Source of the DNA: Paracoccaceae bacterium | GTDB taxonomy: Bacteria; Pseudomonadota; Alphaproteobacteria; Rhodobacterales; Rhodobacteraceae | Assembly (NCBI GenBank): GCA_026710155.1 | Contig: JAPORQ010000050.1 | Span: forward strand, 1 to 41,616 | Direction of reading: 5' to 3' | Length of the DNA stretch: 41,616 nucleotides | Shown: positions 16,692 to 41,616 of the stretch, in pieces | How the letters are laid out: each line of letters starts with the position of its first letter | Numbering within the stretch: position 1 is the stretch's first letter | The notes under the pieces: generated by a model | Databases searched by the model: none | The model's input: the letters and a program-made list of their open reading frames with translations, nothing else | Told to the model about the DNA's origin: nothing | Program-made: the position numbers and the translations under genes

Positions 16692-16706
16692 GGGGATTAT
16701 ATACTT
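16692..16706 (-). repeat. Border repeat AAGTATATAATYCCC, copy 2
   Basis: On the minus strand AAGTATATAATCCCC is followed by the palindrome CTAAATTTAG. It overlaps a TACTTGTTTCCCCA box read on the plus strand (16702-16715). It lies downstream of variable gene A, in the same orientation as the copy upstream of that gene, so the two bracket a 1.1 kb segment. Confidence 0.5.
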
Positions 16707-16715
16707 GTTTCCCCA
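16702..16715 (+). repeat. TACTTGTTTCCCCA box, copy C
   Basis: An exact 14-base match to the boxes upstream of the two poly-C genes (17804-17817 minus and 40555-40568 plus). This copy points right, towards gene A's 3' end, and faces the other copy in inverted orientation. A weak TTGACT (16741) lies downstream, as TTGACA does in the other copies, but no good -10 box or poly-C gene start follows. Confidence 0.5.
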
Positions 16716-17020: not shown

Positions 17021-17702
17021 TCAACGACAGCCCCAGTTGGACCGAATCGAGGAATAGTCCCAACTCACGGCACTGCCGTCAATCGTGACACTTCCGGTGG
17101 CACCCCGGCCACACAGGCAGTTCCTGACATGGTGGATGGTCAGGGGGCTGATCGAGAAGCACCCGTTGCTGCCGTTGTTAATAGAGAGATTGGTGATGGT
17201 GTAGGTGCCACCCGTCATGAAGCAGCGCCGGGCAAGCACTTGGAGAGGGCGACCTTGCGGAACCGCACGAACTTCGACATAATAGGGGGTCCTTGCCGCC
17301 AAACCCGTTCTGGACAGGCTGCCGCCGGCATAGTCCGTTCCACTTGATATTGTCATAACGGGCACCCCGCTTTCCGTTGAGTTCACAAGGACACCCGTCC
17401 GACCGTTGTAAACACCGACGTAAATGCTGGCAAACAATGGCGCCTGCCCGTCGCCGAGCGGTGCGGTCACCTGGCTCCATGTCACCTGCGGTGCCGTGAC
17501 GGTCGTGCTGGATGTGGACAGGGCCGTGATGGGCATATTCGCGGCATTGATCTCAGCGGAGCCGATGCAGGCCGTCGGGCCTTCCCGCCCGCTGCTGGTC
17601 ACGCTTGTCTGCGCCCATGCCGGCCCGGCCAGAACCGCAGACAACAAAAGGATTGTTAATTTAATAAAAAAGTGGGGGGGGGTATGTGATGATTGCTTTC
17701 AT
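17021..17702 (-). CDS. Phase-variable exported protein, gene A (recorded OFF)
   Basis: The ATG at 17702 is preceded by AGGGAG at good spacing and a promoter, but after six codons comes a run of nine C (17682-17674 on the minus strand), and this frame ends at TAA 17661. Dropping one C joins the ATG to the long frame: a lysine, a hydrophobic signal segment (KLTILLLSAVLAGPAWA-Q) and about 200 exported residues. The mature part is rich in Ser, Thr and Gly with beta-strand character, a CFMTGG motif and a cysteine cluster (CLCGRG) near the C-terminal WGCR. Its signal region, poly-C position and leader resemble the gene at 40.7 kb, so the two are paralogues. I do not recognise a functional domain; a surface or secreted adhesin-like role is only a guess from the architecture. 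If the run length is an assembly error, the gene is simply ON. Confidence 0.65.
17674..17682 (-). repeat. Poly-C tract (9) in the 5' end of gene A
   Basis: Nine consecutive G on the plus strand, read as C on the coding strand. In-frame lengths are 8 or 11, so the recorded length is off by one. Such tracts mutate by slipped-strand mispairing. Confidence 0.85.
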
Positions 17703-17757: not shown

Positions 17758-17786
17758 ATTATGTCCATCGCGCTCCCCGGTGTCAA
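17758..17786 (-). promoter_or_regulatory. Sigma-70 promoter of variable gene A
   Basis: On the minus strand TTGACA (17786-17781) and CATAAT (17763-17758) are separated by exactly 17 bases. The first base of the ATG is 55 bases beyond the -10 box. The matching gene B has the same layout. Confidence 0.7.
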
Positions 17787-17803: not shown

Positions 17804-17851
17804 TGGGGAAACAAGTATGGAATGCCCTTAATTTAAGGGAATTATATACTT
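17804..17851 (-). repeat. TACTTGTTTCCCCA box with imperfect palindrome upstream of gene A
   Basis: The minus strand reads AAGTATATAATTCCC (17851-17837), CCCTTAA/TTAAGGG arms around 17825-17839, and TACTTGTTTCCCCA (17817-17804). The stretch 17813-17851 is an imperfect inverted repeat, each arm being about 19 bases with three mismatches. The 14-base box lies 17 bases ahead of the gene A -35 box. It may be a regulator site, a recombination site, or an element end. Confidence 0.5.
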
Positions 17852-40320: not shown

Positions 40321-40554
40321 TTTTCCTATCCCTTAAACCCAGAGGGAGAAAAGGACACCACGTTTCTTGCTAACCGAATGATCGGTGTTGACAATTTCTC
40401 TGTCGATTCAGTAATACTGTTGAAACCCATGATAAATTATTCTGCTACGGTCTCAAGGAAAGAATGCTCGTTTTTTTATTTCTTTTTTTTATTGATTTAC
40501 ATTAAACAAATTTTGAATATAATTAAAGAGATTTTTTGGCATTAGTTTTGGGGG
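40321..40554. other. Intergenic region before variable gene B
   Basis: No gene. The left half is the TerB/J-domain gene's promoter area; the right half is very AT-rich (long T runs around 40475-40490) and leads into the TACTTGTTTCCCCA box. Confidence 0.4.
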
Positions 40555-40568
40555 TACTTGTTTCCCCA
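40555..40568 (+). repeat. TACTTGTTTCCCCA box upstream of gene B
   Basis: Exact copy of the 14-base box upstream of gene A. It lies 20 bases ahead of the -35 box, against 17 in gene A. Confidence 0.6.
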
Positions 40569-40588: not shown

Positions 40589-40617
40589 TTGACATATTGG
40601 GAAGCGACACCTATAAT
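40589..40617 (+). promoter_or_regulatory. Sigma-70 promoter of variable gene B
   Basis: Perfect TTGACA (40589-40594) and TATAAT (40612-40617) with 17 bases between. A consensus promoter is unusual for a chromosomal gene and suggests strong constitutive transcription, so that ON/OFF would be set by translation frame. Confidence 0.8.
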
Positions 40618-40698
40618 TGTCAATGTCCGGCCTGCCAGTCTGTGGTGTGTCGGTTTGAAATACGGCCGATGGCAGCGACCAACACAAGGAGAGACATC

Positions 40699-41362
40699 AT
40701 GTTCACAACCGGGTTCACCCCCCCCCCCTCGTAAATTAACGGCACTGGCCGCCGCACTGGTAGCCTTGCTTGTGGCGGGACAGGTATGGGGGCAGACCAC
40801 GGGCACGATTTCAGCCGTTGCGGACGGTTTTACTTTTCCTATGACCGCAACGCTTAATAGCAATCGTGAATGGGAGTTTGCTTACACCGCAGATATCAGC
40901 AATAACATCCCAACTTCAATTAGCGTATGCAATATCGATTCTTCAGTTCCGGATAAGAGCGTCTGCTTTATAGATGCACCGTATATTATGAAGTTTGGGC
41001 AATTAAACCGGTCTGCCTGCTTTGCTATGCCCCCGCAATCAGCGATAAGCGGAATCAACGGAAGGATACCCTTCGCTTCATGGCAGCAGACACTCCGGAC
41101 AAAGCCAGATACAAGCTATTGCATAGCCATTTATGCGAGTAATCCCATGAGTTATTTTTATAATGTCCCATTCGCGTCCGCTGCGTTTACAACCCCCGCC
41201 GATCCCAATCCGCCCGCGTCCCCTGCGTGGACACCGCTGGGCGCCGGCTGCGGAGCGGAAACTTCACTGGATCTGGTCAGGCAGTGCTTCCGATGCAAAT
41301 ACCAGGGAACGGCTGAAACGTGGAATTTCGACACCAACCGTTGTGTATCAGCCGGTAGCTGA
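40699..41362 (+). CDS. Phase-variable exported protein, gene B (recorded OFF)
   Basis: AAGGAG (40686-40691) lies seven bases ahead of ATG at 40699. After six codons comes a run of eleven C (40718-40728), and the ATG frame stops at TAA 40732-40734. One C fewer, or two more, joins the ATG to a long frame that begins RKLTALAAALVALLVAGQVW and carries on for about 210 residues to TGA at 41360. The mature part is Ser/Thr/Pro-rich with scattered cysteines (ISVCNIDSS, SVCFIDAP, SACFAMP, TSYCIAIYAS) and a C-terminal Cys motif (QCFRCKYQGTAETWNFDTNRCVSAGS). It shares signal-peptide wording, tract position, leader and promoter with gene A. A surface or secreted role is inferred; no known domain was recognised. 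The continuous frame back to 40568 lacks a ribosome-binding site at its ATG. Confidence 0.7.
40718..40728 (+). repeat. Poly-C tract (11) in the 5' end of gene B
   Basis: Eleven consecutive C between the ATG and the signal peptide. In-frame lengths are 10 and 13. The tract is long enough for frequent slippage. Confidence 0.88.
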
Positions 41363-41440
41363 CGGGCAGCGGCGGAGGGGGAAGCTGGTCGATGTCCGCC
41401 AATACATGTGGCAACTAGCCAACCATATCAAAACACACAC

Positions 41441-41465
41441 AGGGCGGTCTTCGGATCGCCCTTTT
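41441..41465 (+). terminator. Intrinsic terminator of variable gene B
   Basis: AGGGCGGTC and GATCGCCCT pair (one G-U) around a TTCG tetraloop at 41450-41453, followed by TTTTT. A strong rho-independent terminator 80 bases after the stop. The stem resembles the terminator at 20050-20088. Confidence 0.85.
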
Positions 41466-41492
41466 TGAATTGAACAACGATAAGATGAAATC

Positions 41493-41597
41493 ATGAATGG
41501 TATATTGCCAAAAGAAGATAAGGAAACCAACGATCCAATAAAGGCAATGGTTCAGATTCTATTCGGCACCAACAGTTGTGGATCAGGCGGCAGTTGA
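41493..41597 (+). CDS. Small ORF of 34 codons, related 3' end to gene B
   Basis: ATG at 41493 leads to a 34-residue frame ending GTNSCGSGGS and TGA at 41595. Its last 48 bases (41562-41609) resemble the end of gene B including bases beyond the stop (41327-41374). This could be a small peptide gene, a decayed end of another family member, or the fragment of a duplicated 3' end. No good ribosome-binding site was seen. It runs close to the window edge. Confidence 0.3.
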   Translation: MNGILPKEDKETNDPIKAMVQILFGTNSCGSGGS

Positions 41598-41616
41598 CGT
41601 GTAGCGGCGATTGATC

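Follow-up and report, generated by a model that had tools for sequence, protein, structure and literature searches.

Poly-C tracts between start codon and signal peptide at dispersed, probably phase-variable genes of a Paracoccaceae bacterium

Results

A run of cytosines cuts gene B off from its start codon

The window, that is, the whole stretch of DNA analysed here, is the 41,616-nucleotide contig JAPORQ010000050.1 of a Paracoccaceae bacterium (assembly GCA_026710155.1). Near its 3' end, on the forward strand, lies a gene that we call gene B. A sigma-70 promoter (TTGACA-17-TATAAT; 40589-40617) agrees with the consensus at 12/12 positions and is followed by a Shine-Dalgarno sequence, AAGGAGAG, read from the sequence at 40686-40693, by an ATG (40699-40701) that opens the leader ATGTTCACAACCGGGTTCA (40699-40717), and by a tract of 11 cytosines (40718-40728), the proposed switch. 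The signal peptide and the putative secreted protein behind it occupy 40730-41362 (210 codons plus a stop at 41360-41362); this open frame starts RKLTALAAALVALLVAGQVWGQ, a typical signal peptide. The signal-peptide frame (40730-41359) is one base out of register with ATG 40699, whose own frame is closed by a TAA (40732-40734) inside a TAAATTAAC stretch, leaving an 11-residue peptide as the product of the ATG at the assembled length. The earlier note had described this start codon, the C11 tract, the one-base offset and the end of the ATG frame at 40734, and direct reading bears it out exactly. With a promoter on one side and, 3' of the gene, a terminator-like hairpin plus a run of T (41441-41462) on the other, gene B looks like a small but complete transcription unit in which the C tract separates the start codon from the rest. 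An in-frame ATG at 40568 was rejected as the start of gene B; it lies upstream of the promoter.

Gene A, on the reverse strand of the window, has the same layout and the same register offset. Its promoter-like element (TTGACA-17-CATAAT; 17758-17786) precedes an ATG at 17702, a tract of 9 C (17674-17682) and a signal-peptide ORF of 216 codons plus a stop (17021-17671) whose product belongs to a family, family A, with a possibly FN3-like fold.

At least 32 loci in the same genome share one plan

The earlier note had also proposed searching the rest of the genome for an ATG followed by poly-C and a signal peptide. Applied to the genome from which the window comes (G000; 83 contigs, 3.13 Mb), this search yields at least 32 loci. 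The pattern ATG-N18-C8 has 19 matches there against 1 for a reversed control pattern, an excess over chance. Tracts of exactly C9 number 63 and those of C10 or more 24; exactly-C8 tracts, about 14 by subtraction, were sampled only in part. We examined 75 stretches around C9 and C10-or-longer tracts (the window's own in addition) and 21 others, and kept those loci that have an ATG within 60 bases, a site resembling a Shine-Dalgarno sequence, seven or more C and, 3' of the tract, a frame that looks like a signal peptide. The 32 loci that pass, genes A and B included, follow one plan: an ATG, 5-9 codons, C8-C11 and a signal peptide. The filter excluded L088 and L089 (both +1, and members by eye) and the short or degenerate L045, L047 and L080. 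Only 5/32 loci are preceded by a strict promoter pattern (each hexamer with at most one mismatch), and we claim no consensus promoter for the whole set. At three of the 32 (L015, L064 and L086), a second Shine-Dalgarno-like ATG stands in another register.

That genes A and B are two unlinked genes of the same layout had been taken to make coincidence or a lone sequencing error improbable. The shared layout and offset hold, and the independence of the two does not: they are members of one set of similar loci dispersed in the genome. The argument from two loci is thus weaker, and the argument from many loci much stronger.

Tract length in the 32 loci is C8 once, C9 24 times, C10 five times and C11 twice. 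The ATG is in register with the signal peptide at 5 loci, offset by +1 at 22 (genes A and B among them, with C9, C10 and C11 all represented) and by +2 at 5. One identical leader, ATGAAACGACTGTTGAATA, occurs with three tract lengths: with C8 it is in frame (L175, a 216-codon ORF beginning MKRLLNTPPTFNLIAALL...), with C9 it is out of frame in six scored copies (L018, L023, L031, L036, L042 and L052), and with C10 it is in the other wrong register (L079). Counted by eye, the distinct leaders per register in this genome are 12 at +1, 5 in frame and 4 at +2; the +1 class is still in excess. That 22 of the 32 loci stand in one OFF register is partly due to recent duplicates and otherwise unexplained.

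Poly-C also extends beyond this layout in the genome, since 59 of the 90 listed tracts of at least 8 fall outside the 32 loci. Two genes for N6/N4 DNA methylases, one fused to an HNH domain and the other to a T5orf172 domain, have such a tract just 3' of the start codon and are assembled out of frame (L032, C9, G000:C21:48919-48927; L058, C11, G000:C55:21318-21328). DNA methylase genes are classic phase-variable loci, and these two are likely phase-variable methyltransferases. Poly-G/C tracts of 9-11 also lie within the solute-binding-protein genes L029, L066, L071, L081, L082 and L085 and the HsdS-like L076, close to the mature N-terminus in L029 and L081; these genes are possibly further contingency loci.

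The proposed switch genes are mosaic and mostly keep open reading frames

The products of the switch genes are mostly related. Members of family A, to which gene A belongs, have a conserved N-terminus, a variable middle and a C-terminal part with CFMTGG...GCFSISP...RNCLCGR. The only other full copy of gene B in the genome is L073, at 58% identity. Nucleotide identity along successive 30-codon windows is uneven in both families: between L018:6293 and L040 it runs 100, 98, 61, 59, 57, 97, 100 and 100%, and between gene B and L073 67, 60, 43, 68, 61, 86, 98 and 78%, so that the constant region of the latter pair is its C-terminal part only. Judged from these alignments, the mosaic pattern is what would be expected if recombination exchanged the middles or homogenised the ends.

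A Pfam search gave no match for genes A and B, and the fn3 scores of two further loci remained under the 25-bit cut-off (L039, 17.7; L019, 13.6). The closest PDB matches of the predicted gene A structure (pLDDT 68.6) are FN3 domains, and they are weak (E 7e-4, TMq 0.27); on this model, family A may possibly have an FN3-like fold. The model of gene B (pLDDT 46.7) was too poor and was discarded. Switch genes also carry other secreted proteins, for instance a Calx-beta protein at L064, and the module of leader, tract and signal peptide therefore appears to be combined with different cargo.

Most of these genes might be decayed copies, permanently OFF remnants of an amplified repeat. Fragments and stop-containing copies do exist (C83:2837, C5:8478 and C29:19183), and the leader of L080 contains, by eye, a stop codon. 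Against this, 18 of the 19 family A matches in the genome that cover at least 185/215 model positions have no internal stop, gene B retains an intact promoter, Shine-Dalgarno sequence and terminator, and in-frame copies exist, at least one of them among those 19 near-complete matches (L175, at C13:77116). General decay is thus very improbable. We count reading frames that stay open in copies that are mostly out of frame in favour of phase variation.

Relatives occur in two classes of Proteobacteria and occupy all three registers

We scanned one genome per species, 84,980 species in all, with the family A alignment; the scan rests on two peptide patterns. It returned 42 family A loci in 13 metagenome-assembled genomes (MAGs), all of them bins labelled CAR1-CAR4. 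Seven are alphaproteobacterial (Rhodospirillaceae, Aestuariivita, Roseovarius, Rhodobacteraceae and Rhodobacter) and six gammaproteobacterial, one of these from Thiotrichales. Contigs of more than 100 kb carry six of the 42 loci, so stray short contigs cannot explain all of them. Carteriospongia foliascens is among the hosts sampled in PMC8163846, with four individuals. CAR probably stands for this species, and the MAGs would then come from one sponge host; this is an inference, and the bin names are absent from the main text of that paper. The bacterium of the window is probably an uncultured sponge associate.

Sixty relatives of the window's genome were searched with the same alignment, and members were found only in G004, of the same genus. 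Among viral contigs, 87 stretches match a peptide pattern and none encodes a relative. Overlapping C9 matches number 214 in G004; they are likewise very many in G013 (703), G010 (287), G015 (247), G022 (198) and G003 (167), five genomes with no family A match, and perhaps belong there to other poly-C systems.

A tract of C7 or longer lies near the gene in 24 of the 42 CAR loci and is absent from 18, many of which are incomplete matches or sit at the end of a contig. When three loci of G004 are added to the 42, a signal-peptide frame follows a tract of 7-22 C in 24 cases, 23 of them in 11 of the 13 CAR MAGs and one in G004. Four of these tracts have no scored ATG, and L093 (C13) was left out by the filter. 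For the 20 with a scored ATG (19 from CAR MAGs and one from G004), the signal peptide is in frame in 5, at +1 in 8 and at +2 in 7. Two members in CAR2_bin_5, L090 and L104, lack a poly-C tract; in L090 an in-frame ATG stands, by eye, directly ahead of the signal peptide. As L090 is free of a tract, not every family member has the switch; these two may have lost it or may not have acquired it yet.

The reading put forward earlier, that poly-C acts as a translational switch, is supported by this survey: the layout recurs at 32 loci in one genome and at 24 tracts of 7-22 C elsewhere, one identical leader is found with C8, C9 and C10, and all three registers are present. The +1 excess in the window's own genome, which persists despite C9, C10 and C11 tracts, keeps a rival alive, namely programmed or leaky recoding, whereby the tract is deliberately one base off and ribosomal or transcriptional slippage provides a low, constant supply of secreted protein. 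A programmed frameshift should have a conserved offset, and this holds neither for the 20 homologues (5/8/7) nor for the 32 own copies (5/22/5), in which one offset is in excess without being conserved. Moreover, one and the same leader is in register in a C8 paralogue and shifted to the other offset in a C10 paralogue, and tracts of up to 22 C are unexpected for a tuned site. We therefore consider recoding unlikely, without setting it aside.

We placed 41 rows (17 own and 24 CAR) on a tree, with class labels assigned by hand from the scan. The tree mixes alpha- and gammaproteobacterial rows: the gamma label changes 9 times against a mean of 11.2 for shuffled labels, 9 or fewer changes occur in 46 of 500 shuffles, and at least 6 changes are forced by well-supported branches. 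Such a tree assumes no recombination, which the mosaic genes contradict, and is approximate only. Vertical descent alone is not a credible account.

The assembly carries no general one-base excess in homopolymers

A further possibility, raised in the earlier note, is a systematic homopolymer error: true tracts would be one base shorter and the genes ordinary ON genes. A uniform correction of this kind would put 22/32 own copies and 8/20 homologues in frame. The same correction would break the 5 in-frame own copies and leave 12 of the 20 homologues out of frame. Conserved genes provide a second line of evidence. We chose eight ORFs by eye from a list restricted to tracts with open frames on both sides; Pfam gave a match above the cut-off for 7/8, none for L050, and one match spanning the tract for 4/8. 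In these four solute-binding-protein genes, a C/G9 tract lies within a single continuous Pfam match (at residue 221 in L066, 350 in L071, 181 in L082 and 158 in L085), in frame as assembled. L029 (G11), L081 (G9) and the HsdS-like L076 (G9) are likewise open through the tract. Given the selection for open frames, this set shows that homopolymer error is not universal and gives no error rate. In-frame C/G9 tracts in conserved genes mean that the assembly has no general one-base excess; an error at a single locus is not excluded. Systematic error is accordingly disfavoured, and we hold it to be very unlikely.

Inverted repeats flank some loci, and gene B lies at a variable site

An inverted-repeat-like motif lies 5' of gene B (40553-40568, forward strand; TATACTTGTTTCCCCA with 2 mismatches). 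Gene A has one upstream (17804-17819, reverse strand) and another, inverted relative to the first, downstream (16700-16715, forward strand). With no more than 2 mismatches allowed, TATACTTGTTTCCCCA has 52 copies genome-wide and the control pattern 2. When up to 4 are tolerated, 17/32 loci have a copy within 330 bases upstream of the tract, and four have an inverted one within 800 bases downstream (gene A, L018, L040 and L073). Loci with repeats at both ends form units of 1,097-1,399 bp. Shorter elements that share these inverted ends but contain no switch gene (196-199 bp) lie at G000:C32:13404-13602, C77:17651-17846 and C29:28235-28433, the first two similar by eye over their whole length. 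At L084 (start of G000:C78, C11) and L083 (G000:C77:41137-41145, C9), the tract lies inside or adjoins a copy of the inverted repeat, by eye as if the repeat's own C run had expanded.

Three results count against a simple, MITE-like mobile cassette. First, no clear target-site duplication was seen by eye in 10 repeat pairs. Second, gene B has a left copy of the repeat only, with no right-end repeat in the end of contig C64. Third, just 1 of the 42 loci in other genomes has TATACTTGTTTCCCCA around it at up to 3 mismatches.

Three close relatives, G001, G006 and G008, lack gene B's region at the corresponding site, and none of them has any family A or B match. The left flank (39000 to 40524/40538) is about 92% identical to all three, and the match stops at 40524-40538, 15-29 bases before the motif at 40553. 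Beyond this point the three relatives differ also among themselves, which marks a variable site, not a clean empty one. Sequence from beyond the flank in G008 is found on contig C64 of the window's own genome, in two pieces about 4.5 kb apart; the end of C64 matches window positions 41184-41525 at 98.8%, continues with about 0.46 kb of other sequence and then has a 72-base match to G008. The last 50 bases of the window (41567-41616) are identical to the 3' end region of the paralogue L073, yet C64 matches the window only to 41525. The contig end may reflect branching of the assembly at a repeat, or a second copy that is only partial.

Discussion

We propose, with a probability of roughly 85%, that gene B is phase-variable by slipped-strand mispairing in its C tract and was assembled in the OFF state. 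Slippage during replication would add or remove C in the tract, and one register in three would join the ATG to the signal peptide of a secreted protein of about 210 residues. The same plan, with a Shine-Dalgarno sequence, short leader, poly-C and signal peptide ahead of proteins that are for the most part related, conserved at both ends and variable between, would make the other loci switchable too, and their products may act in contact with the host or with competitors. The anatomy, the tract-length differences among copies, the three registers and the absence of the gene B region from close relatives are observed; slippage, its reversibility, secretion and the effect on expression are inferred. 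A phase-variable gene of this type should have a homopolymer of about 7 or more in its 5' coding region after a credible start, as gene B does. Tract length should also set the register, with in-frame and out-of-frame forms both occurring; this was seen by comparing paralogues and homologues and not among gene B alleles. The two methylase genes with 5' poly-C in the same genome also count in favour. Against random switching stand the 22 of 32 copies in one OFF register and the 24 of 32 with exactly C9, where about one third per register would be expected. That most of the population is OFF at genes A and B is an inference made without read data.

The mechanism is of a known kind. Its nearest counterpart in logic is the opa genes of Neisseria: many unlinked copies, a repeat tract in the start and signal-peptide region that creates ON and OFF frames, and mosaic copies with a conserved framework and hypervariable parts. 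The opa genes differ in encoding outer-membrane beta-barrels, in using CTCTT pentamers and in being known from one genus only, whereas here a C homopolymer lies ahead of the signal peptide of a small secreted protein of uncertain, possibly FN3-like fold, with relatives in two classes. The homopolymer contingency loci of Campylobacter and Neisseria resemble these genes in having poly-G/C of similar length at many loci per genome, but usually encode diverse surface-modifying enzymes and not one amplified, widely shared secreted family. Phasevarions have a parallel in the two N6/N4 methylase genes with 5' poly-C tracts, which are companions in the genome and not the switch family itself. For sponge symbionts, PMC8163846 reports that FN3 genes are enriched in sponge MAGs and also among genes acquired by lateral transfer; the part of it available to us describes no tract switches or mosaics, and the term 'phase variation' does not occur in the paper. 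Among the papers listed in a literature search, we found no account of this family or of a switch family of such a plan across bacterial classes in one host microbiome.

Phase variation has been studied mostly in animal pathogens. Here, some thirty switch genes of one plan occur in a probable sponge associate, with relatives in 13 MAGs of two classes, apparently from one host. We put forward only tentatively, as an idea more doubtful than secure, that this is a community-wide contingency pool: switch genes with a variable, binding-like domain would pass between unrelated symbionts of one host by an unknown carrier while their middles are reshuffled, alpha- and gammaproteobacteria would draw on common switchable secreted proteins, and in the window's genome some switch genes would travel as inverted-repeat cassettes. 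The near absence of the inverted repeat from loci in other genomes makes this reading less probable. Should switching be confirmed, what varies as a unit may be a gene pool common to a microbiome and not to a species, and it would become testable whether symbionts rely on switchable surface or secreted proteins in dealing with host recognition, phage or each other.
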